From assembly GCF_964340395.1 (NCBI RefSeq), contig NC_135567.1, positions 13,537,091 to 13,601,090 on the forward strand: a stretch of DNA of 64,000 nt, read 5' to 3'. A program made the position numbers and the translations under genes. This stretch comes from Glandiceps talaboti. Its lineage: Eukaryota > Hemichordata > Enteropneusta > Spengelidae. Under the pieces are notes generated by a model that did no database searches, was not told the origin of the DNA, and saw only the letters and a list, made by a program, of their open reading frames with translations. This document shows, in pieces, positions 1,956-52,312 of the stretch; position 1 is the stretch's first letter, and the number at the start of each line of letters is the position of its first letter.

Positions 1956-4900
1956 TCATCCCATGATGAAGTCATCATATTTCACGGGTAACTTCCTTGT
2001 GCGAGTTGGTCTACAGGCAGCTTGTGGCACACTAGATTTACTATGGTCATCCACTGGTGCTTCCACAGGTGGTTCCACTGCTGTATTATTAGTTTCAGGA
2101 TTTACAAACAATTTCACATGGGACGTGTTTCGCTTGTAACCAACACCTTCAGGTGATTGAACAGTTACCTGGTTACCATCTCTGTGCACAACGGTGTGTG
2201 GAATGTCATTGAAGTTAGTTGTCAGCTTGTTCATCTTTTCCTGGCGAATCAGTACTTCATCCCCCACGTTGATTTCTGATGGTTTTACACCACGTGGCAA
2301 ATCAGCGGTTATCTTAGACTTGGCTTTCTGCTCAGTGTCACGGTCTCGAACTTCGACGTCATATTGTGATGATGCATTGACAAGTCTGGTAGTTTACCAC
2401 GTAGTTTACGACCAAATAACAATTCTGCAGGGCTGCGACCAGTTGTAGGATGAGTGAGTGCCCTGTATGATGCTAGATATTTTCGAATCTCTCTCCTCCA
2501 GTCTTGCTTTTCAGCTTGTGCTATTTGCAGTCGTTTCAACAGGGAGGAATTCTGGCGTTCTACCTCTCCATTGGCCTGTGCCCACTTTGGAGTAACTTTA
2601 ACAGCTTTGATGCCATTGACTTCACAAAATATCATGTAGTCTTCAGCTTTAAACTGGGGTCCATTGTCAGACCGAATTGTCATGGGAATACCATGACGAC
2701 TAAGATGTTCATCTAAACAGTCAATCACCTTATCTGCTGTGGTAGATGTCATTATATCCACCTCATAATACCGACTGTAGTAGTCTACCAGCACGAGTAA
2801 TGAATGACCGGATGGGAGTGGTCCCAATAAATCAACAGCTAAGTCTTGCCAAGGACCGTCTGGTAGCATCGTTGACCTAATAGGCCCAGCTGGATCTGGT
2901 TTAGCTACAAATTGACATCCATGACATGAACGAACAAAACGTTCCGCGGCCTTATCATAGCCTGGCCACCAAACTTTAGTACGCAAGTTCTGCTTGGTAC
3001 CAACAATACCGAGATGTCCTTCATGGGCTCGAGCTAGAGCTTGCTGTCTCAACTTTGCAGGTAACACAATACGAGTCCCTCGCAATATCAACTGACCAAT
3101 CATACACAACTCACCAGCCACATGTTGGTATTGTTTACAGCTTTCAAAATGACCTGAATTGATTGCCCTTCTGACCTCTGCAAATTCTGGATCAAGAGCT
3201 GCAGCTTCCTCTACTTCGCGTGTTGTCAAGGCTTGTGGTGTTGCACGTACTGCCACAAATCGCACGTAGTCATCAGCACCATGGTCATGGCGTTCTAATT
3301 TACCACCAGGTTTCAGAAGTCGTGATAATGGATCTGCTAACATCTGCTTGCCAGGTATGTGTATCACATTGAAGTCATACGGTTGCATGCGCAGAACCCA
3401 TCTTTCAATTCTAGCACTAGGCTTTGAACGACTCCCATATATCACCTCTAATGGCTTGTGATCAGTAAGTAAATCAAACTTTACACCATATATGTATGCA
3501 TGAAATTTCTCACAACTCCAGACCAAAGCAAGTGCCTCCTTTTCTGTCTGTGAGTATCATCGTTCCACATCTGTAAGCGATCTGCTGGCATAACACACTG
3601 GTCTCAGACTACCATCTGATTGTTCCTGTAGAAGTAAGGCACCCAATCCAACCGGACTCGCGTCAGCAAGAACTTTAGTACGGGCTGACTTGTTGAAGTA
3701 TGCTAGTGTCGTGGCATCTGCCATTTGTTGCTTCAATTCATTGAATGCATCGCGTTGTCGCTTTCCAAATTCAAATTTCACACCTTTGCGTCTAAGCTCA
3801 GACAATGGTTCGCAGATCATCGAACAATGCGGTATGAATCGACAATTTAAGTTGACCAAATCCAAGAAGCTACGTACTTCAGCTGCATTTTGTGGTTCAT
3901 GAGCTTCAAGGATGGCTTTCACACGTGACTCAGTCGGGCCAACTCCTTTCTCAGACAGTAGCATCCCCATGAATACGAGCTCATTCATAGAGAACTCACA
4001 CTTATCCCTATTCAGTGTTAGTCCACACTGCTGAAGTCTGTTCATGACTTTATGCAATCGTTCATCATGCTCCTCTTGGTTTTGAGCGTGAACAATGATG
4101 TCATCAGAGATGTTCTTTACACCTGGCATTCCAGCTAACGCTGAGGCAATTTCGTGCTGATATAGTTCACTGGCTGAACTTACACCAAACAACAGTCTTT
4201 TATATCTGTACAGACCACAATGTGTTACAAATGTGCAGATATCTCTCGACTCAGGGTCTAGTTCTAACTGATGATAGCCCCACTTCAGATCTAACTTGCT
4301 GAAAACTGTGGATCCATTCACACTTTGAAGCAATTCATCCACAGTAGGAATAGGATATCTACCCCTAATGATAGCTTCATTAGCTTGTCTCATATCAAGA
4401 CACAATCTTATGTCACCATTGGCTTTCGGAACTACAACTACTGGGTTGACCCACCTGCTAGGGCCTTCAACTGGTTCAATAATGTCATTGTCCAATAGTT
4501 CCTGTATTTTCTGTTCCACTTTACATCTCAGGTTGAATGGTGTACGTCTCAGGGGTTGTGTTACAGGTTTAACCTGATCGTCCACATGAATCTTGACCTG
4601 TTTAGTGTTCAATTTTCCTACTCCCTTGAATACTGATGGATACTGGCTTTGCATTACACACTTTTGATTAATTATAGAGTTAACAAGGTCAACTCCCACC
4701 TTAAATGCTCCCACTTCAGTGGCTGTGGTTTTACCAAGTAGTGGTATGCCGCTCCCTTTAACAGCAATGAAGTCAGCATCTGCTTTCCCTTTACCAACTT
4801 TAATTTCGCAGGAGAAACCACCAATAACACTGAGAGGCTTGCTAGAAGCATATGGGTATAGCTTGGTATCTTGCTTATAGGATACACACTGAATTGTCTG

Positions 4901-5143
4901 TGTTTTCAGAGTTTTCCAAGTGTCCTCATCAATGATGTTTGTGGTAGCGCCCGAGTCCACCAACATGTTCAGTTTGATGCCACCAATGATAACTGGGATC
5001 ATACCATTCTCGATTTGACCTCGAACATGGAATGCATAATCTGAATTCACGCCACTTGGATTTTGCTCAGAGTTCACACAGTTCACATCTTTACGTTTTG
5101 ATTTAGAGACCGATGCAAAGTGATCAGCACCATTACACTTCAA
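1956..5143 (-). pseudogene. pol: gypsy pol polyprotein (protease-RT-RNase H-integrase), broken
   Basis: Reading downward from 5143: a retropepsin-like site 'LVDSGATTNII'; reverse transcriptase with 'FSKLDLKWGYHQ' and the catalytic 'NISDDIIV' box; an RNase H region ('LTDHKPLEVIYG'); an integrase HHCC finger ('HEGHLG...CHGCQ'); and a DDE core with D in 'DLLGPLP', D in 'RSDNGPQF' and E in 'NGEVERQ'. An in-frame TGA at about 3554-3556 separates 'SLTDVER' from 'YSQTEKEA', and CGA to TGA is the likely change. A frameshift near 2300-2312 puts the C-terminal 'GDEVLIRQ' tail in another frame. All catalytic residues I can check are intact, so the damage looks recent. Confidence 0.9.
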
Positions 5144-5889
5144 ACACTTTTTACCTTTTGCAGGGCACTGTGGGTCTCTGCCATAGTGTCCAGTACGGCC
5201 ACATCGGTAGCATGCATTACCAGTAATACCACTAGCGCTGTTACCACTATACGTCTATTGTTTTTTACTTTGTTTGGGCTTGTGTTTGTCAACACGATTG
5301 ACAACAGCTGTCTCTGGTTTGCTTACCGACAAGGTTGCCATTTGACTTTCGACTTCTTCACACTGTCTTGCTACTTTTAACGTGTCAGCGAGAGTTAACG
5401 TAGCACCTTCTTCTAACAGCTTACGGCGAATATAGTCGGAGTTGCATTTTGCGATGATTTCATGACGGATCTGATTGTTCATATAAGCACCAAAATCACA
5501 GTCTTTTGCTGATCGTCGTAATCTAGTTACAAATTGCTGGACTGTCTCTCCCTTCTCTTGGGTGAGGGATCTGAACTATCGCCTCGCGTAGGCTGAGTTA
5601 ACTATCGGTACAAAATGAGAGTTCAAAGCATCGACAGCATTCTGATAATCGTTTGGCGTACCTGTGTGGCTAATGTGCTGAAAATGTCATGTACATCGGG
5701 TCCAGCTAAGTGCAGCAACTGTGCTCGCCTCTGTCTTGCAATAGACGGCTTTTCAGGGTCTAATATCAAACCTTTGGCGTCTGCAAAAAGTTCGAATGAC
5801 GTCAACCATCTTTTCCAACGTTGACCGACCATGGCAGTGTCTCCAGCACAGTCAAAGGTCGAGATTACATTCTTATGCAAATCATTCAT
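5144..5889 (-). pseudogene. gag: gypsy gag with zinc knuckles, frameshifted
   Basis: Gag begins at ATG 5889 (MNDLHKNVIST) just inside the 5' LTR and holds a capsid-like region. The first frame ends near 5623; gag-like sequence continues in other frames to 5255 and then to the knuckles near 5210-5110. Those read 'CYRCGRTGHYG' and 'CLKCNGADHF', resembling CCHC knuckles; the last cysteine of the second appears replaced by serine. At least two frame changes are needed to read the whole protein, so it is not translatable as one product. Confidence 0.75.
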
Positions 5890-5938
5890 GATGAAAAGTT
5901 TACACGCGAAACCTGTGAATATTGATCCTCGTCGCCAA

Positions 5939-6081
5939 TGTAAAATTCCGCCTTATTGGCTCAGATTATACTAGACTTTAGACAAGATTCAACTTCAGCA
6001 GCTCATTTCTATATACCCAGAATGCTCTGGAATACGTAAGTTCCGCTTCCGGTGGAATGCGGTACATATCAAAACATGACA
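5939..6081 (-). repeat. 5' LTR of the gypsy element
   Basis: 143-bp partner of the 1458-1630 LTR with only a few substitutions and one 30-bp deletion. It is followed by the AGAAG target duplication. High LTR similarity implies fairly recent insertion, despite the coding damage. Confidence 0.9.
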
Positions 6082-6086
6082 AGAAG

Positions 6087-7338
6087 GATTGATAGAAGTG
6101 ATATGCTGAAGTTGCAGGCTGCTCGCACAAACCGTTATGTTAACTCTTGTAAACGTTTAAATATAGAACAACATGGATCTTTTAACATTGCTCTTTTCTT
6201 TTGACACACTATTTAAAGTCACAGGGGTTTTTTCCTTTGTTTTACAAAATGGTTTACCATTGATGACCTTTATATCTTATTTACCGTATTTTACTGTATA
6301 AATTTGGCACATACTTCAAACATAACAATGAGCACATGTCCTGAAAAGCTTGTTGATTTAGCCTGTAGTTTTAATGAGTCATTTGCATAATTAATTATTT
6401 TCAGTAATTAGGCTATACATAAAGAGTGTAAGCTTCAATTTCTATATAATTTGGTATGTACATTAATGATACCAGGGTGCACATATCTCATAAGGCTTAC
6501 TGATGTAACACTAATGATTCTCAGTAATTAGGCTGTATCTTTTTCTCCTTCAAATTTAATATAATTCGGTATACATTGATGGTAACAAAGTTCATGCACC
6601 ATATAAAGTTTGATAATGTAGCTTTTAGTTTCAATGACTCATTTGCATAATTAATGATTTTCAGTTATCAGGCTATCTCTTCAAAATACATACTTCAAAG
6701 TCACTATAATTTGCAATTGGTACATACTTCAAACATAACTCATCGCATATGTTCTGTTGCATTCCAGCAGTCATTGTGGGTAGGAACGAAAATCTAAAGT
6801 TTTTGCCCTTACGGAAGGCATTCATTTTAAATCTAAAGTCTTTGCCCTTATGGAAGGCATTCATTTTAAATCTAAAGTCTGTGCCCTTACGGAAGGCATT
6901 CATTTTAAACCTGGTTGTAGTTATAACGCCTAATTTGCCTTAATTTTGATGGATGTTTGGTCCATGGACTTTGATTAGTTCCTCGGGAACTATTTCCATG
7001 GTTCTCACGAGAATTCTGTCTTGTTTTACTTTTAAAGAATGTATTTTTTTTTTCATTTCCTGGTGGAATAAATTTCAATTCTATTCTATTCAATGCAAGG
7101 GTCCTACAATGACGTCATCACCATCTATTAATAATCCACACCAGGTCCTACAATGCCTTCCACATGCCTGTTTTGTTTTATTAGGGCGTTTATTTTTAGA
7201 AATTCATGCGATTTTGAAATTTTGAAATCGTTCGTTGTATTTTGCGAGCTGTATCGAGATAAGCTTACATTTAAGCCTCCTTGTATTCGATATTGCTGTA
7301 AGTATTGATGAATAAATTAAAATATACATCTTTTATAG
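6087..7338. other. LINE tail, then AT-rich sequence with local repeats
   Basis: 6087-6200 is the continuation of the LINE interrupted at 1457. From 6360 to 6680 a segment of roughly 130 bp containing 'ttgcataattaatgattttcag' is present about three times, diverged. 6795-6910 carries three copies of a 35-bp unit ('ggaaggcattcattttaaat...'). 7085-7150 resembles the 'cctaccatgatgtcatcacc' part of the 725-1016 repeat. No host exon is seen before 7339. Confidence 0.5.
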
Positions 7339-10300
7339 AGTTGATAATGGAAACGCAGCAAAATATAAGCAAAGAAGTACTTTCACAACTGGCGGCTTTA
7401 GAATCAGACAATTATACAACAACTGCTTCAAATGAACAGGTATGAACTCATTTATATGTAACAACGGTATGTATTAATCTGATATGGTTTCCATAGTGAT
7501 ATCATCCATACCAACTATTTCATTCAAATCTATTAAAATTTGATCTCACCAAAAATTCGACTTATAATTTTAAAACCCTCTCATACCTCCCCATAAAAGG
7601 ATATATGTTCCAAAGACGTAATTCTCTGAATACATGACAAGTGTAGTACAACTTTTATTCTTTTTAATTTTAAAAGATTTCATTTTTTTAAATACTAATA
7701 ATAATAGCACTTGTAAAGCGGCATATATTCTAGAAGTTCATAAGCGCTGAGCACTACACAAGCAATAAAAACTGCTAGTTGAAAACATACTAAAAGAGTC
7801 ACAAAAGTCACTGACAATAAAATAGTCTCACATAATAATAAACAAGAATCATTGTTTAAAAGTCACTATAAAGAATCACCTGTAATAAAAATCAAAAATA
7901 CTAAATTAAAAGAGTAAAGAGTCATTTGCAATAAAAGTCCCTTGTGATAGAAAAAAGTCACTTGTGAAAGTCACTTATGATATAAATGCCTTTTTCAAAA
8001 GGAAAATCTTAACTATAGTTTTAAAACACAAAAGTTCATCACAATCTCTAATTTCAAGAAGTAGACCGTTCCATAAGACTGCTGCAGCATTTGAGAAAGC
8101 ACGTTTTCCATACGATGATTTTACCGGATTAATTGTGACGAGTAGCGTGGACTTAGAGCGTAGATTACGTCAGGGTTCATAATACTGTGGTATGTATGGC
8201 GGAACCGTGCCATGTAGTGCTTTATAGGCTACCTTGAATTCAATCCGTTCAGATATTGGAGGTTTTGAAGAACTCCAATAATGTGGTCATACTTTCTGGT
8301 TTTGGTGATTAATCGAGCAGCAGTGTTCTGTACAAACTGAAGTTTCCTTATACTGCTGAGAGGAATACCATACAATAAGCTGTTGCAAGAATCTATCCTG
8401 GATGTAAGAAAGGCATGGACTAGTAATTTGTCTGTATCATAGCTGAAATATTTTCTAATTTTAACAATATTCCTAATATGAAAAAGAGTAAGTTATCGAT
8501 ATATTATTTTATTACCCGGCAAAAGTAATGCGTAAGTTGATGTCAGTAATCAATACACGTGTGTTAAGCGAAGAAAAAACCCTGACTCGACTGTTCCCTT
8601 AACTCTTGAACGAATGAAAGGCAATATATTAACCAGGAGACATAATCATGCATAACTCTGTCAATTTGTATTTTTCAGCTCAAAGAGAAAATGAACGACT
8701 TGTACAATATCACAGAGAACCTCCAAGAATTCGATGTAACTTTGGGAGAGAGCAAAGAGATAGCTCAAGGTAAGACCAAATGAGAACCATTTATTTGATA
8801 GAAACCTCCTGTTTTTAGTTTCTAATATGTCAATATCCCTAATAACAATAAACATAAATAATTGCATCGTCACATCTCCTGTAGTCAGGTAGCTCAATAT
8901 AAGATTGAAATCAGGTGCTAGCAAATCTGTACTATTCAAAATGTAGCATATTTCCAGAATTTTTACAACAGAGAAATGAATAAATTATCGCAATCACCAT
9001 GCATATGAAATCCTTGTAATGGTTTCACAAAGAGTAAAAGCCTTTTCTCCTTCTTAGTTAATTAAAACTAACCATACCTATATCTAAGTCTTGTGATTCT
9101 GTTTTCAGTCTTAATAATTTATGGATATATTTTATATTTAATTTCATAATGCAGCATTGTCAACAGTTTGAACATAATATATGATAACTAATTAGCAGCT
9201 GCTCTGGGGATGATTAAGATTTTCTTATTACGATATTTTGTTAAAGAATTGCTTGCCTTGAAGAACGGTTGAATAGACCCAATGTGTAAATAATCCATTC
9301 TCATAACAATTACAAAACATAAAATGTTTGAAAAATGTTGAAAGTTTAGAATATAAACTTGCAAGGTACTAATCAAGTAATCTTTCACAGCTGTAGTGTC
9401 GATTGTTGCTAACGTGCTGGTTAGTACTTCAACCATAATGAAGTCACCACCTGATAACGAAACTCTAAGTCCTGAGAACGCCAGAGATTTCACCGAAAAA
9501 ACCATGAACATCCTGGAGAAGACAGCTGATTTTGTTCTGAACAACATGGAACCTGATAATCGCCCTGTAGTCATCAACACTTCAAGTGTCTTGCTGAATA
9601 TGGAGTCTGGGACTGTAGACGGTATGGGAAACAAGACAGTTAACCTGGGTCATTATAGCGGTTTTGAAGTTCCATCTGCAGATACCTTATTCCCAATGCT
9701 GGACAAGAAGAGTCACTTATATGCAAAGGTAATGAAACTCAAATAATTATGGAAATGTCTTCGACAAATACTCCTAAAATAGACTTGACATTGTATACCC
9801 CCAGCAAGCCGGGTTGAACGCGTTACAACAAGATACTAAGGAATTTATGCCCTGGTCATTTTATGTCACTACAATACGCATCTACATCATTGGTACAGCA
9901 ATTATACCCTATCGCCTGATATGACCCAAAATTCATGTGACTGTGGTCCCCAGTTTTGGATCCGACAACCGTTTAGGAACAGCGCCCCTAGTGGCCAAAC
10001 CTTATAAATCATTTGTTTTTGTTTGTGTCGTTTTTATGATATTAATTGGAATGTGACGTTTTAAAGTGGAGGAGTAGAATGGATTTCCTTGATTTACCAA
10101 TTTCCTCCGTTATTGTCATTTCTTTGTGTTGTCATTCTGGGATCTGATCCCCTCTTCCTTGAAAAACAAACAACAATAAAGGTAATAAATGGTAAGTAAA
10201 TGGAAGATATAGCCATATTTTAGTATAACATCAGATTTAAAGAGATTGACAACGAAGGTGGAGATTGAAATCAACGTAACGAAGTGTTTTCCTGATTTAT

Positions 10301-42973: not shown

Positions 42974-44640
42974 GTTTACTTACCGTAAAGTCATGTTTAA
43001 TTGGTATGAAGAGCTATGTCCGAAACCCTGTTGTAAAGCGAAGGTGTCTCACACCAATGCACTTGTAAAGCGTTAGATATTCTCAATGGTTTCACTTGAA
43101 CAATTTCCAGCACCGATGGAACAAATTATGTCAAATATTTTGGTATCCAGGGTAGATTGTTTTGTATATATAGTAAACAGGAATGACAGGGCTAAAACCT
43201 TGTCAGAATTAATTCACGACCTAATTACCATTACAACATTTATCAAAGCAGGAGTGATCATGAATAATAGAGCAGTAATTATAGTCAGGCAACACAGAGG
43301 GCGTACTCATGTGACCCCAAGTCACATGTTACTTCACATTCTTGCTTGGTACTTCACAAACACATTTAACATAAAGTAATTTGTTAGTAATATATCATGT
43401 ATTGGGGGAGACGTGTCAACTAAGGATACAAGAATTGTAATATCATTTAATGTACAAGTTCATTAAAGTTGTTTATTCACACGTATAAGTTTACAGAAAA
43501 CACTTTTTGTAGTATATATACGTTGTCCAGACTGTTCATAAAACTATACACCTACCAGTCTGTGTTCATCCAGGCATCGGTTGACCTATCTACGTTTGTA
43601 GATTTCCTTTCTATACGTAGGATGATTCACTGCGCAGGTCATAAATTTGTATGGAATGACGTCATTGGGATCGTATAGTTTTTGATCATTCTGGCATCGG
43701 TTGTATAGCCATGCATCAAGTGATACCAAAATAAGCATGACACCAACGACTATTGTGTCTTTTGACTCGAGACAACCATAGTAAACAAGAACATAAATTG
43801 TGTTGCTATTTGACAACGTCATAATGTTTTGACTTCAAAGTTATTTTGTACTTTCTAAACATCCAAAATGGCAACTATGCTGTTCGATTGTTCGATATAT
43901 ATATGTTTTCTTCTCCCAGTTATGTTTTCAGTCCCCTTGATGGCTGAACCCTCTTATTGTTATCATTCACAATGTACAATGCTGGGGGGACAGGCTAGAC
44001 TAGCTGTAAGCTATTTCTTGACTCCCCATTTACCCTTCTCTCTTTAGTTTTCTGTTATCATTATTTTGTAATCATTCATACGCCTAGGTAAATAAACCAC
44101 TTGTATTGTTTGTGTATATAGTAAACAGGAATGGCATGGCTAGAACATTGTCTGAATAGGGAACTTGCAAACCCGCTATGTTGAATGTTGCATCATGGGA
44201 AATATGATAATAAATACTAATCAAATAGTATTGTAAACAATAATGTTACATTGTTTGTAACCACAAATGATCAATTCATAGGCACCCTGACCATTGTGGG
44301 AGGTTTATTTTATCGGTAGCTTCTGATTAGGTATTACGATAACCACAGATAATCCCATAGTCCATTGCGTCTGAGCATGCTCAGTCTGGATTGCAAGTTC
44401 CCTATTATAATATGTGCTCATTCATGCATCGAATGGCTTAGACAACAGTAACAGTTGTTAATGTTGGAAATTGTGGTTATCTTTATTTCTATATATATAT
44501 TTTTTCTTTCGCTGTACTTATTTTCCTATCTAATATTTTCTAAGTACATGTATTGCATAACAGGAACAGTTGTCACTTAAATTATTTTGCTAATTGTTGT
44601 ACTCTTGGTAATGAGGCTGAACTCGATTAGTTGCTAAATG
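42974..44640. other. Interval without recognised genes, with a dispersed duplication
   Basis: 'tatatagtaaacaggaatg' followed by 'ggctaaaacctt' and 'gtc.gaat' at 43168-43210 recurs at about 44116-44157. This is the sequence just downstream of the RAG1-like relic on the minus strand; I looked for the missing catalytic core here and found no recognisable exon. Confidence 0.4.
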
Positions 44641-44649
44641 CAACTATTT

Positions 44650-44775
44650 TTTAGTCTTTTTTTCTCTTTTCAATTTTGTACATTTCATAGAGCCACCCCT
44701 CCCTTGTCCCCACCAATTTTGATTTGGAGAGTATTGTGGGAAATGCTGTTGTTGTGCCATGTGAGTCGCGGGAGT
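44650..44775 (-). pseudogene. RAG1L: RAG1L exon with first catalytic aspartate motif
   Basis: The acceptor TTTATTTCAG precedes a 25-codon frame in the phase required by the upstream exon. It reads 'LPRLTWHNNSISHN' then 'LQIKIGGDKGG', with the Asp codon at 44706-44708. A small indel follows, so 'GSMK' (the family has GGGSFKM here) is in a different frame, and similarity ends about 44665. Confidence 0.8.
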
Positions 44776-45519
44776 CTGAAATAAAACCAAATGAGTAAAG
44801 GGAAATCTATGTGTTTTACCAGCAGGTCTTTGAAAATGAAAGTTATGTGAATATTCTAGTAGCAATGATACATACTTGTTATTTTCAGACAGGGGTTCTT
44901 CAACAACATCCATCAAATTACAGCTGACAAGTGGAGCTAGTCTGATTTCAGTTTTTTGTTTTCCTTGTGTTGTCTTGACGTTGAACACAAAAGGGAGGTT
45001 CTCTGTATAAAGAGACGGTACTACTGAATTTAATTCCCTTCTATCTGCAGCCTCAGACCTCAAACTTAACTTCCATCTCCTCATCCATCTGTCATATTAA
45101 AGAAAAAATATTGCATGGGTGTATTTTATGATATGAATAGTGTTTTTATCTCTAGAATGAAACTAAGTTAGAATTAATGCAATACAATAGAAGAGTTATG
45201 TAAACAGTTCTATACATACTGCTTCAGTTTTCGGAACTGGTACCAAGTCAGTTGCATATCTACTTTCAAGCTTAGCCCATCTCCCTCCTTCATGTGTGGT
45301 ACAAGGCCTAGATTGCTGAGAACAGCTGCTCTCTCTTTCTTCGTTAAAAGAGTTTTCATTTCATGAGCTAGCTGCTCTTGCACTCCAGGCCCTGTACCAC
45401 TCAGTTGCTCTCTGAGCTTCTTGACTTGATGACACCGCGATTTGTTCTTGTTCTGAGACTCGCCTCTGCACTGTCCTTACGAGGACGACTCGCATATTGT
45501 ACATGTATTGGCTATGCAA

Positions 45520-45523
<4 letters not shown>

Positions 45524-45613
<90 letters not shown>
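45524..45613. repeat. (GA)n microsatellite in a RAG1L intron
   Basis: 90 bp of GA dinucleotide just upstream (in minus orientation) of the acceptor at 45471, supplying a CT-rich polypyrimidine tract for that exon. Confidence 0.95.
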
Positions 45614-45617
<4 letters not shown>

Positions 45618-46530
45618 ATGATTCTTAAAACTGAAGTCACAAAACTGGAGTGAAATTAAAAAAATTAATACAATAAATCATAAATATCAACTGGAAACTG
45701 AAAAGGCTGAATAGTATATAACAAACAATTTAATAAAACTACAGTCCCATACCATTTATAGATTTTTTATTTTTTTTTTTATTTTTTTTTTATTTCATAA
45801 CCAAAAAGAAAGAACAATTACAAATACCATTTATAGATTTAACATTGTACAATAGGCATTTATAATTATTACACATAACTATTGTGTGTAAGTGTGAAAG
45901 TCTAAAATTTAAAATACTTACAGGACCACCAGTCTTGAAACGTAGAGGTATGCCTGTCCTACTATTAGGTGTACCCTCCATTTTTCACGCAGACACTTTG
46001 TTGCGAGCTCTTCAAAGCCAGGTAAGCCAGAAAGTGTGACCTCTGACCTTAGGAGAATATTCATTGCCTTCTCATTCTCATTTACTGCTGTAGGTTTTGT
46101 TATTTGTGACGTGGAAGTATGTTGATGATTCTTCAGTGACATTATCTTGACATAGGGTGCACGTCATCACCTTCTCTTCCAAACATGTTACAAATGGAAT
46201 GGCAACTTTGATAATGCATGTGAGGGAATTTATAACATATCTACAAATGGGGCATGTCACAGCTGTTGTTGCTGCCAGTACCCATTCAGGGAGTCACTCT
46301 CCACAAAATATGTGGCCACAAACAATCTGGATAGGCCCATCTAAAACTTCTTTGCAAATAGGGCATACAAATTCAAAAGAAATGTTATCAAAAAAATTGT
46401 CTGGGTGGAGGTTCATCTCAGTACAACCTGGGGGAAGAAAACTGTTTGTCTTTTTAGAATCAATTATATTGATGAGGTCTTCAATCAGAGGTGATGGAGT
46501 TGTGAGTAGTGGAGTTGGGGTTTCTTTGAT

Positions 46531-46571
<41 letters not shown>
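46531..46571. repeat. (TGA)13 / poly-serine trinucleotide tract in RAG1L
   Basis: 41-bp pure TGA array. In the RAG1L frame it encodes 13 serines just upstream of 'IKETPTPLLTTPSP'. It keeps frame, so it could be tolerated in a linker. Confidence 0.9.
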
Positions 46572-46635
46572 CACTGGTAGATATGCTGATGTGGATGGTG
46601 GTAGTACTAGTCTGGTTGGTGTGGCATTAACTTTA

Positions 46636-47013
46636 TATTGGTTGGTTGACTTTCGGGTTTTTTTGTGGTCTTCCACCTTTTTTGTGGACACGCAAGTCTT
46701 TACAAATCTCACAGTCACCAGTTCTAGAATGTCTTGACCATTCATAAAAACTTTCATTGACAATGTAAGATTTTCCATGCAATAATGTATCCTTTCCATG
46801 TACAAGTTTCCTCTTACATTTTTCACAAAATATAGACGGATGCACACCTTCTATGTCAGTAGCAACATTTAACTTAAACACATTCAGAATGTCACCTGAA
46901 TAATCCCTAACGTAATACTCACGACACTTTTTGCTATTTAAATTAGCAAAACAAAACCTGCAATGCAAATTAATAGCACTTGTATGGAAGTCTAATCCCC
47001 AGGGTGTTGACAT
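46636..47013 (-). pseudogene. RAG1L: RAG1L N-terminal zinc-binding exon
   Basis: 'MSTPWGLDFHTSAINLHCRF' opens at ATG 47013 (context aaaATGt). Likely metal ligands by position: C18, C21, H58, C63, C66, H72 or H79, H95, C101 and C104. The segment ends in 'HKKGGRPQKNPK', similar to the basic linker after this domain in vertebrate RAG1. The frame then meets TAA at 46633-46635. A short intron from here to about 46590 could bypass the two TAAs, but no good donor is visible. Confidence 0.8.
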
Positions 47014-47112
47014 TTTGAAATGGCTGCTCACAAAGGAGCCGGTCGACCGGTATAATGGCAGTTGTAAATTTCGATTGGAGAAATGATTTTGAAATTTACT
47101 AATTTGTAGCAA

Positions 47113-48447
47113 TTTTTGAACGGTATGCCCGGGGCTCCCATGTCATGCCCGTACTCGCGATCACAATACTATCACACAATAAACAAACACAGAAAACTAT
47201 TTTCTTTTCCATCAAAACTCAAAAAATATTTGGTTTCTCCGACCATTCGGGCTGACCATCCAACCAGGAAGTATGTAATACATGTTGACACAAGGGATGG
47301 CCAATGAACAAAAGAATAAAACATAACAATTTCATTAATCAAACCATAAATAATGCATATCATAATATTATCACACATTTCCAAGCACAGAGCACAGTCA
47401 TTCATACAAATTATGTTGATAGAGGGCGTGATCACCTTGTATTGTAGATGTCTAGTAAAATGCCTTTGTGGTGTTCATTTGATGTCTGTATGGTGGCATG
47501 TGTAGTTCGTATCACTAGGACTAAATGTAGCAAAGAAACTTTACTCATTCAATCTGACTATCTTGAAGACAAATGTACCATGGCTAGTTTCTTATTGGTT
47601 TCAGCGTGGTTGTCAACGTACAGCAGACGTGCAAAATAGTGTGATAATTATGAGCTAGAGTTCGTCTACCTCATAGAAAACTGGGATACAAAGTACAAAT
47701 GACGTCATGTGTTTATTGTACAATGAGATCGAAGTACCTACAGCAGGTATCAAATGACGTCGTTTGGGCAACCATGCATGTAAACTGAGGAGTGGTTGGT
47801 TTGGTTTATTTTTGGTGGGGGGGGGGGTTAGGTAAGGGTTCCAGAGTAAACTAGCGGTACAGCGGAGGAACACCGTGGTACGCCTACACACAGAAACAAA
47901 TCAGAGAGTTACGTTCCGTAATTCCAACAATCGGTTACGGAACGGTGTGTACTGCCGACGTAACTCTCTACACTGAGTAACTCAGAAGAGTGTATTTTTG
48001 AAGAATAAAAAATTGGTATACCGTTGGACCACAGAAACAAGTAACAGCGAAATTACACAAGAGTTACGGTTGTGGGGAATTTTCGTGTGTACCTGATTCG
48101 CTGTCTCAGATAACGTGACAATGTAGGCCCTTAAATCACCAACATTCCTACACTGCCTGTAGCCAATTGTAAACCAATGAGACTTGGACAGGGGTTGACA
48201 GGCATATATTTGTATATACAAGATGTCATGCTAAATGTTGTAAGTACAATCATGACGTTAGTGCGTGATAAAACCTCTAATTTATAACATTGGAAGGTAC
48301 GCCTCTTAAATAGTTAATACGAACCAGTTTAAACAAGTTGCCGTCACGACATACACACCAGATCAGTCTGGCTTCCCTGTGTACCATGATGTCATGCCAG
48401 TGCCACTCATGAACTTGAATATATCGCGATATTGATGGTAAAGCATC
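47113..48447. other. Interval between RAG1L and the NACHT gene
   Basis: No exon or terminal inverted repeat of a RAG-type element is evident. A nested inverted repeat lies at 47904-47975 ('agagagttacgttccgtaa' against 'ttacggaac' and 'cgtaactctct'). A G-run lies at 47817-47828. The last few hundred bases should contain the promoter of the DED-NACHT gene, but I see no TATA box I would defend. Confidence 0.4.
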
Positions 48448-51400
48448 ATGGCTGTCACTGACTCGGCACTCTCATGGCTGGCGATACTGTTCAACGACCT
48501 AGCGAGCCAACTAAAGACATCTGAAGTTTGTCGAATGAAATCTATGTTGGTGACATCTGGGAAAATCACTCCCAATGAGTCAGAACGTGTTTCTAATGCT
48601 TTCGACCTATTTAGTCTCCTACAAGATAGAGCGCACATCTCAGAAAACAACCTTAACCTTTTAGTTGAGGTATTCGAAAAGATAGGGCGAAAGAATTTAT
48701 GTGGCATCATCGACAAGTCGAAGAGGGAGGCCGGACACGCCATTAGTTCAGGTACGTGATAAGGTGGTTGTAAAGTTAATAAATAATCAACATATCTATT
48801 TTTATATGTGAACTGTTCTACTTAGTATGTTGTTGATCGTATCTATAGTAACGGGAATCAAACAAAGGCCGTTCAAGTGTTTTTGTCTAGCATTGATTTC
48901 CGGCGTGTTTTTACGCTGTGTATAATGCGAATACCTGTTTGTTTGTATGACTGGCTAGTTAATTGGTTGTTTAGTTATACAAATGTATGTGCATAAAAAC
49001 TGAGGTTTGCTTAAATAAAAAGAGGTCACGATGAACGTTTCGTTGTCAAAATTCTTCACAATCTACATAATGTGTTGTTCTACCATGGATGTATTAGTGA
49101 GAAGGATATCGCACGTTCCTTTGACGTATTGTTTCCGTGATCCTTGCCGACGTTAATACTTCCGGGGATTTGGCAGGCTTTCCGTAACAAGATTAACGTG
49201 ATAACTTATTCATAGGAGCTCATCGGGTTATCATCGGCAATTTCCGTCATTCTTCCGTACGTAAATGGCGTTCAAAATGGCATACACACACAGTCGCTTG
49301 TAAACTGTTATTCCTTTCCTAAATGGTTAATGGTTTTATTCTTGTCTATGACGGTCCTAATACAGAACAATGACGTTATTATAGGGATTGGTGATGATAT
49401 TATAAAATCGGTAGCGATGTCAAGTACGTGTTGTGTGTACTGTACAGTGTATGTATGACATCGCTACCGATTTTATAAGAATATAGCCAACCCCTATATA
49501 ATAACGTCATTGTTCTGTATTAGGACCGTCATAGACAAGAATAAAACCATTAACCATTTAGGAAAGGAATAACAATTTACAAGCGACTGTGTACATACAC
49601 GAAGATGCTGATACATCCATCCACTAATACATCCATGGTTCTACTAACATACCTCGTAGTACCGGCAATCCTATCTTCCATAAAAGTCGCGTCAAACACC
49701 GCCATCTGTGGCCACATTACCAGAGTAATTTGACTACTGAGTATAATTGTATTTTCAATGTGTAGACAACTACAAGTTGAGTTCAAATGATAAGGTAAAT
49801 TGCACCTCAAACGTTTAAATTTGGCGAATGGCAATTTAACATTCGTCATGCATTACATTGGGATATATAGGTTGTTACATTTATAGAAGTGTATAGTATA
49901 ACCTGATAAATGAAGGTGAGAGACATCAACACGACACAAATCAAAATGTCATATAAAACATCTTCCTTATTGTTGGATTTAAACTCTAGATGTCTGTTAC
50001 GTTGGGAGAATTCATCAAAATCTATGTAAAGGATCATTCTGCGAGATTATACTATAAATTCCTTGTGCTGCATTTCACTTGTAAATGTCGCCCTCTATGG
50101 CTACTTTACAAAAATATATTTTATTCTGTATATTCTTTATTCTTTAGGTGATGAAGCTGCAAAGAAATGCAAAGAATTGTTGAAGTCCCATTATAAAGAT
50201 AAAATGACGTACATCGATCCAGTACCCTGGTATGAACATGGTTTTCAATTACCTTTACTTGATGTATATACACAGTTAGAATTAGTCCAAAGAAGTAGAG
50301 AGGGCTATGAATACAAGAGTGTAGATTTTCGACAAGAGTTGACACCGACAGAGCAAAATCGCAGAGTTTTAGTTGAGGGGGAGCCTGGGATCGGCAAGAG
50401 CACATTCTGTAGAAAGATGGCGCTAGATTGGGCCATGAACACAGAACCAATGTTAGGAAAATATGAATTGTTAATTCTTTTAGAGTTAAGACAAATGGTA
50501 GATAGTACAGACATAGTTAAAGCTATATTTGATCAATTACTACCTGAAGACTCAGGAGTCAATGAAACAGATCTTCGTAATTATATTCGTGACAATCAAG
50601 ACAATATTTTGATTGTATTGGATGGAGCTGACGAGCTTAAACAATCTCTGAAAGGCGAAATTATAAGTTTGATGAATAAGAAGAAATTGTCAACCTCGAC
50701 TGTAATTATATCATCTAGAAGCACAGAGGTAAACACCTTCGTGAAATGTGTAAACAAGCATTTCATTTTAAAGGGATTTAGTAAGGAGAACATAAGTGAA
50801 TACATAATGAAATATGTTAGTGCAGATAGGAATAAGGCACTGCCTGTTGATATGGAAGAAGCCCGTGGAATTACTACCAAAATGAACGAAAATGAAAACA
50901 TAGCTGCACTCGCGATTAATCCACTAAACGTCGTTTTACTCTGCCTTCTCTGGAAAGACAACAAAGGTAAGCTGCCGAGTAAGTTATCTGATTTATTTTC
51001 TCAATTAGTAATGAGTATATTACGACGATACTGTGAAAAACAAAGCTTACCTGTACCTGAAGGCAATGAAATACCACGAAATTATAGGGAGGAAATGTTA
51101 AAGCTAGGTAAAATGTCGTATGATGGTTTAGATACCGACAAATTTAGGTTTTCTACGGTAGATTTTGAAACGTACCAAATAGCTACGGCAAGCGCTTTAT
51201 TTAGATTAGGATTGATAACTCAGGAATACAGCAGTGCTAGACTACAACCTGGTAAATACTGGGTGTTTGTACATAAGTCATTCCAGGAATATATGGCAGC
51301 TTACTATCTGGTACAAACTAATCAAGTAAACGACAGACAGTTTCTTCGTGCGTTTATTCGTAATAGAAAATTCACAAATACCTGTCTGTTGGTCGCCGGA

Positions 51401-52312
51401 CTCCTTGATAAGGATGGAGACGTGTTATTCAGTATATTTGCTGAAGTTCTTAACGATATTAAATATAGTGACTGCCAGGCGTTTGAGGAGTTAAGTCATC
51501 TAGCCCTTAGTTGCCTACACGAATCTGGATATCCTAAATTATTTGTCCTTACAATTGCAAGTAGCATAATTCATAATAATAAAATCTGCATAGGTTACTA
51601 TTTGTCCATCGTCAGTAATGCCTGTACTTCAGGTTTAAGCCATATGGTTAGATACTGTAATCAAAACGCTGATACGAATAGTAAATTAAGATTGCGTTAT
51701 CTTCGCCTTTACGAAGTTAAAGTTCCAAAACAGACACTAACAGTCTTAGCACAAGGACAGTATTTACAAATACTGCGTGTGAAGGTTTCAGATGATTCAC
51801 ATAATGAACTGACCGCTGTCATTGAAGCAAATCCTATAAAACATTTATATATAAATATTGTATCACAGAAGGATATGTTCAGTATCATGACGTTCATTGC
51901 AAATGTTATGCAAAAACTAAACAGTCCCATTACCTTCCAAACTTCACTGTATAATACTGGTAACCAGTCTGATATTACTGAATATCGTAGAAATACTCAT
52001 AAGTATCATTCTTTATTTCATCTCAATGAAACTCTGCAACGTTTAATCGTACACGGCTATCGTGGGAGTGAAATATTTTTCACCAGCATCGGAGAACATA
52101 TCGCTAGACAAAACTCTTTAAGGTATCTGAATATCAGATTCTATGCCAACGTTTTATTAGCTGAAAGAAGGAGAGTACTTACTAAAATACTACGACAGAA
52201 TAATAGTCACTGGGACAAGATCATCACCAGACTAACAAATGAACTCTTTGAGAAGAGTTGTCCAAGAATACAAAAGGCGGGATTTCATTTAAATGTTTGG
52301 GAACGCAAATAA
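48448..52312 (+). CDS. DED-NACHT innate immune receptor (NLR-like)
   Basis: Two exons: 48448-48751 and 50148-52312, phase 1 joint, about 822 residues. ATG 48448 has a good context (catcATGG). Exon 1 is one death-effector domain (residues about 5-95: hydrophobic heptads, 'FDLFSLLQDR', 'LLVEVFEKIGRKNL'). Exon 2 starts with a linker, then NACHT: Walker A 'GEPGIGKST', Walker B 'ILIVLDGADEL', sensor-like 'VIISSRS', 'INPLNVVLLCLLW' and winged-helix 'FVHKSFQEYMAAYY'. The C-terminal 250 residues contain weak LRR-like pieces ('LRYLRLYEVKVP', 'LQRLIVHGY', 'LRYLNIRFY'), not regular repeats. Such proteins are cytosolic NTP-driven sensors whose DED would recruit caspase or FADD-type adaptors; expanded families are known in lancelets, acorn worms and other invertebrates. 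Frame intact; AATAAA overlaps the stop and another lies at 52542. Confidence 0.88.
49280..49602. repeat. Long fold-back (~132-bp arms) in the intron of the NACHT gene
   Basis: Left arm 49291-49422 and right arm 49456-49590 are inverted copies with only a few mismatches and small indels, loop about 33 bases. Transcription of the host gene would put a 130-bp hairpin in its pre-mRNA. No coding content. Confidence 0.92.

Follow-up and report, generated by a model that had tools for sequence, protein, structure and literature searches.

Identity of the minus-strand remnant

Is the gene remnant that lies beside an NLR gene on contig C20 of Glandiceps talaboti a lost RAG1-like gene, as proposed in an initial annotation of the locus, or does it derive from another kind of transposon? 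We addressed this question within a window of 64,000 nucleotides (C20:13537091-13601090 in an assembly of 590 Mb and 47 contigs), and positions given without a contig refer to this window. An element-like gene remnant occupies 47231-44677 of the minus strand, where a Chapa zinc domain and a RING are followed by three coding stretches ending in GGDKGG. Its Pfam family and published descriptions set it beside Chapaev, and we regard it as very probably a dead, doubly truncated cut-and-paste transposon of Chapaev type (CMC group). It is an ordinary fossil, a dead addition to known Chapaev transposons and not a lost RAG1-like gene. The features of the remnant are as follows.

44677..47231, minus strand: probable Chapaev-type transposase gene fragment, both ends lost relative to its relatives (blastn to L021 and L020)
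45922..47013, minus strand: exon 1, Chapa (RAG1-type zinc) and RING, broken by stops and frameshifts (PF12560, PF13445; one unbroken exon in L021)
46636..47013, minus strand: Chapa, or RAG1 N-terminal zinc domain (Pfam and PDB matches)
46243..46365, minus strand: RING finger, interrupted by a TGA codon at 46294-46296 (PF13445, PDB, frames)
45220..45511, minus strand: exon 2 (KKLREQLS...WYQFRKLKQ), from frames; shares 94.7% of 76 aligned residues with L021
44876..45088, minus strand: exon 3 (WMRRWKLSLRSE...NNK), from its frame; shares 97% of 72 aligned residues with L021
44684..44775, minus strand: beginning of exon 4, containing GGDKGG and truncated at this point (PF06918 match once exons 2-4 are joined)
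44500..44684, unstranded: part of a dispersed repeat, sitting where the remaining element is expected (25/46 genome matches of window 44500-47300)
45763..45824, unstranded: repeated insert of ~60 bp in intron 1, absent in L021 (6/46 genome matches; blastn)

N-terminal domains and exon structure

The zinc region is homologous to the RAG1 N-terminus, as the initial annotation had stated. Pfam placed 46636-47013 in PF12560 (RAG1_imp_bd; E 1.3e-11, 45.1 bits, cut-off 23.3), and a PDB search returned the N-terminal zinc region of RAG1 chains at E 1.8e-7 to 5e-7. Among the pieces searched in PDB, this region was the sole one matching RAG1. The RING described earlier was also recovered, with its first half matching PF13445 over the cut-off (E 2.8e-6, 27.7 bits, cut-off 25.2) and an in-frame TGA within the domain. 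In PDB, the RING half found 28 sequences at E 0.01, with TRIM-type sequences leading and in the majority and RAG1 absent. The WYQFRKLK/WKLSL and IKIGGDKGG stretches reported further along lie on the minus strand.

The order of the exons and the intron phases first assigned to them (0, 2, 2) hold. Joints 45220/45088 and 44876/44775 follow GT...AG in phase 2 with no stop across the splice, and joint 45922/45511 is compatible by eye with phase 0. The zinc region and the RING are parts of a single exon; in L021, the closest copy, they form one unbroken exon with a 411-aa frame. The reported stops and frameshifts are confirmed: exon 1 of the window copy contains stops, including the one within the RING, and the copy differs in length from L021 by numbers that are not multiples of three.

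Affinity of the later exons

When exons 2-4 are joined, they match PF06918 (DUF1280) across positions 47-167 of the 220 in the profile (E 5.8e-4, 20 bits); with 14 more residues E was 6.8e-4 at 19.7 bits. Both scores fall below the curated cut-off of 25 bits. Eight shuffles and one reversal of the joined exons gave no PF06918 match and no family below E 0.07 (0/9), and taken singly the later exons matched no Pfam family over its cut-off. Neither the eight window pieces nor the joined exons matched the RAG1 core (PF12940) in Pfam. No RAG1, RAG1L or Transib chain was returned from PDB at E 10 for the later exons, single or joined, and the joined exons gave nothing meaningful there (best E 3.6). 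Kelch matches were absent from the selected window open frames given to Pfam, viral_contigs held no relatives of the Chapa piece or the exon-3 frame, and a literature search on the literal motif GGDKGG returned nothing related. The profile search suggested as a check on the RAG1 proposal was therefore split: 47013-46636 matches the RAG1 family, and the later exons match no RAG1 core. Membership of the RAG1-like or ProtoRAG lineage does not stand, as PF12940 is unmatched and the spliced end and the relatives of the remnant match the Chapaev family DUF1280 instead.

Published descriptions place these results in context. PMC3985635 assigns DUF1280/PF06918 to Chapaev transposases and sets DUF1280 in one clade with RAG1. 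PMC4411706 describes a RAG1-type zinc part, called Chapa, and then a RING in two Chapaev subgroups, which is the architecture of the window copy. The same paper unites Chapaev, Transib and the ancestors of RAG1 in a single broad superfamily, which makes the relationship to RAG1 genuine, if remote: it holds in the broad sense that Chapaev is a clade of the wide Transib superfamily (PMC4411706), and not in the sense of RAG1L. The RAG1 homology of the remnant is of the kind common to Chapaev and RAG1. By itself, the Chapa domain would also fit RAG1L, and some RAG1L carry a RING-type domain according to PMC7204232. Finding a zinc domain of RAG1 type together with a RING is no evidence of RAG1L, as Chapaev elements have the same pair.

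Relatives in the same genome

A profile search of this genome at E 1e-3 or better found DUF1280 at no fewer than 23 places; all of these score above the cut-off, and the window is not among them. We fetched 10-kb stretches round 20 of the 23 places; these were picked for DUF1280, whose presence in them is by construction. In all 20 loci, the best matches of window or L021 pieces were colinear and on one strand (2 to 10 pieces each), and Chapa was kept in 7/20 and the RING in 9/20.

The closest copy, L021 (C20:13355100-13365000), lies on the same contig ~220 kb before the window copy. In blastn the two share 95.7% DNA identity across 44677-45765 and 45824-47231, and 2412 of 2458 sites are equal with gaps excluded. 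The block homologous to L021, 44677-47231, replaces the extent of 44650-47013 given originally. In L021, the exon with the Asp matches PF06918 over the cut-off (E 3e-10, 40.5 bits), and further exons follow the DUF1280 exon in open frames; these are predicted exons, and the joint check extended as far as exon 4. Inspection by eye found FCLWC and ALHLS in the L021 frames, in a stretch missing from the window copy. For Chapaev, PMC4079192 names the motifs C(2)C, LH and H(4)H. Directly 3' of L021, 4 kb read entirely as N (L030, C20:13351100-13355099).

A second close copy, L020 on C1, is 97% identical to the window over 44677-45613 (blastn), and relatives of the window copy on other contigs occur on C1, C12 and C18. 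Window 44500-47300 had 46 genome matches (from 40 of 91 candidates scored). The likeness to Chapaev covers the Chapa zinc domain, the RING, a DUF1280 region that is over the cut-off in L021, and the presence of multiple copies in this genome. The window copy differs in being an internal fragment that lacks ends and most of the catalytic core. The earlier reading of the locus as a decayed transposon fossil is borne out, given relatives with a fuller exon series and a window copy with stops, frameshifts and lost ends.

Element ends and truncation

A sister element (L029/L011; 10,354 bp) has CACATGCGTTTC at both ends in inverted orientation, matching at 12/12, with TCTT flanks on both sides. According to PMC4079192, the hallmarks of Chapaev are CAC...GTG ends and a 3-4 bp target duplication, while RAGL elements usually have a 5-bp target duplication (PMC7204232). 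The sister element, with CAC...GTG ends and a 4-bp duplication, fits the Chapaev hallmarks and not the usual RAGL duplication.

At a threshold of >=10/12 and a duplication of 3 to 5 bases, the sister element yielded one 12/12 match (4-base duplication), and candidates numbered 0 in L021, 1 in L020 and 10 in the window; we recognised no inverted ends flanked by a target duplication in L020 or L021. Two of the ten window candidates start with CAC (39967, pairing with 52689 and 52860 within a TA repeat, 3-base duplication), and we judged these to be chance. At >=12/14 with a 3-, 4-, 5- or 8-base duplication, the window gave 14 candidates, none starting with CAC. The original remark that obvious terminal inverted repeats were missing holds in that no pair with a target duplication stood out in the window scans. 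Searching the same genome for copies and their terminal inverted repeats, another suggested check, yielded the relatives; terminal repeats were found in the sister element, and none were found for the window's own family. In L021, an inverted pair at 1481-1498 and 6688-6705 (16/18, E 0.74) does not start with CAC. We note that the upstream arm of this pair recurs in L031, L032 and L033, which is unexplained. The sister Chapaev family (L011, L016, L018, L025 and L027) has an apparent long array with a 53-base unit, varying in length by copy.

We considered position 47231 as an element end and rejected it: L021, L031 and L032 share sequence farther upstream, so 47231 is a truncation. A search of L035 for this family's outer 5' end did not locate it. 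At the other side, the break at 44677-44684 coincides with the start of the dispersed repeat, and 25/46 genome matches fall in about that stretch. In keeping with the first observation, neither the catalytic sequence past the first Asp nor the remaining element was found in the window. The copy has lost both ends and gathered stops and frameshifts, which makes it a dead Chapaev fragment, and it cannot make transposase. Near the dispersed repeat, at 44155-44406, is a MITE-like unit with 19-base inverted arms (95%) and 214 bases between them.

These features are best explained as follows. Fuller relatives carry a multi-exon gene for an N-terminal Chapa, a RING and then a DDE-type core made of DUF1280 and later exons. 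What the sequences show directly is the homology, the order of the pieces, the number of copies, the truncation and the decay, together with the ends of the sister element; we infer catalysis and the roles of Chapa and RING. By analogy with the Chapaev group, the transposase would bind CAC...GTG inverted ends, presumably including those of the window copy's own family, and would excise the element and insert it elsewhere, duplicating 3-4 bp of the target. In the window, the copy is missing its 5' part, cut at 47231, as well as all sequence past the first catalytic Asp, cut at 44677-44684 against the dispersed repeat, and it has accumulated stops and frameshifts.

Transposon copy or host gene

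A different origin for the remnant would be a host gene domesticated from Chapaev and copied within the contig, the copy never having been mobile. The Chapa-RING-DUF1280 gene at L021 would then be a domesticated Chapaev transposase, with the window piece as its broken duplicate. L021 is ~220 kb away, its recognisable exons are open, and the scan there for inverted ends with a duplication found none. Per site, nonsynonymous changes are also below synonymous ones: the ratio is 0.34 for the window versus L021 (13 and 11 changes), and for L020 versus L021 it is 0.47 (22 and 13 changes). However, low ratios of this kind are ordinary between copies descended from active transposons. The few coding changes are fitting for copies of a once-active transposase, and on these sequence comparisons they also leave room for a host gene. 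Against a host gene stand the related copies on C1, C12 and C18 and the proper ends of the sister family, along with the run of N over the 4 kb 3' of L021 and the predicted status of its joints past exon 4. We consider duplication of a host gene unlikely, and doubt equally that L021 is a domesticated gene. If it were, L021 would parallel RAG1, with its source in a sister lineage of transposons. The suggestion that the window holds a domesticated N-terminal part is not needed, because the relatives have the full exon series.

A RAG1L-RAG2L pair elsewhere in the genome

A true RAG1L-RAG2L pair exists in this genome, and the window piece is of a different kind. PF12940 has at least 6 matches at 4 sites, none of them in the window. 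The best (C15:20204960-20206699, E 5.6e-71) lies within an open frame of 680 aa that, among solved structures, is closest to the RAG1L chain 6b40_A (E 1e-171). In L036 (C15:20200000-20209900), RAG1L at 4733-6775 on the plus strand is convergent with RAG2L kelch and PHD stretches at 7086-8438 on the minus strand, and one opposite-strand stretch matches RAG2L 6b40_M (E 8.6e-4). The RAG1L frame of L036 has, by eye, a Cx2Cx3GHx4C tail. Three weak candidates for CAC...GTG ends were seen round L036, none convincing. A decayed RAG1-core copy is present at C12:18376562-18378420 in three pieces, two with a stop, and single weaker RAG1-core matches occur on C1 and C19.

In tblastn, window pieces showed no similarity to the 9.9-kb stretch of L036 (best E 1.3; L021 pieces, best 0.34), and for this reason we conclude that the window piece is not RAG1L. 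The original proposal, a fossil of a RAG1L/ProtoRAG (RAGL) transposon, draws on genuine observations: the N-terminal zinc domain is homologous to that of RAG1L, the RING is real and the genome contains RAGL. It is nevertheless highly improbable, as the window pieces searched lack a RAG1-core match, the relatives have DUF1280 instead, with the L021 exon series going from Chapa-RING into DUF1280, and the true RAG1L locus is unlike the window pieces. Chapaev seems commoner than RAG1L in this genome when the at least 23 DUF1280 places are set against the RAG1-core matches, both being counts of exons. The presence of both lineages in one genome is useful for testing the origin of the RAG1 N-terminus.

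An element like N-RAG-TP of Aplysia, which PMC8355894 describes as composed entirely of RAG1 N-terminal-like sequence, would likewise carry such sequence on a transposon, and the window copy does end soon after its zinc-RING part; we give this reading almost no weight, as L021 and other relatives run on through catalytic exons into a transposase core (DUF1280 and later exons) and the window break coincides with the start of the dispersed repeat.

Genomic neighbourhood

The neighbouring NLR gene was correctly recognised, with matches on the plus strand in two parts.

48442..48759, plus strand: NLR gene, death effector domain (DED) exon (PF01335, E 3.2e-13)
50030..52312, plus strand: NLR gene, NACHT open frame (PF05729, E 9.2e-25)

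The Chapaev-type fossil is on the opposite strand and stops 1.2 kb before the DED exon. Its place beside a DED-NACHT gene is its sole unusual feature, and nothing among our tests shows importance or a link between the two. Between the DED and NACHT parts, at 49082-49639, 18-base perfect inverted arms enclose a nested hairpin with 96-base arms. Other mobile sequences were also seen in the window. A 621-aa open frame on the minus strand at 30984-32849 matches PF13843 (DDE_Tnp_1_7; E 1.7e-92), which we take to be of piggyBac type, and retrotransposon-type frames at 2309-5254, also on the minus strand, match protease, reverse transcriptase, RNase H and integrase.
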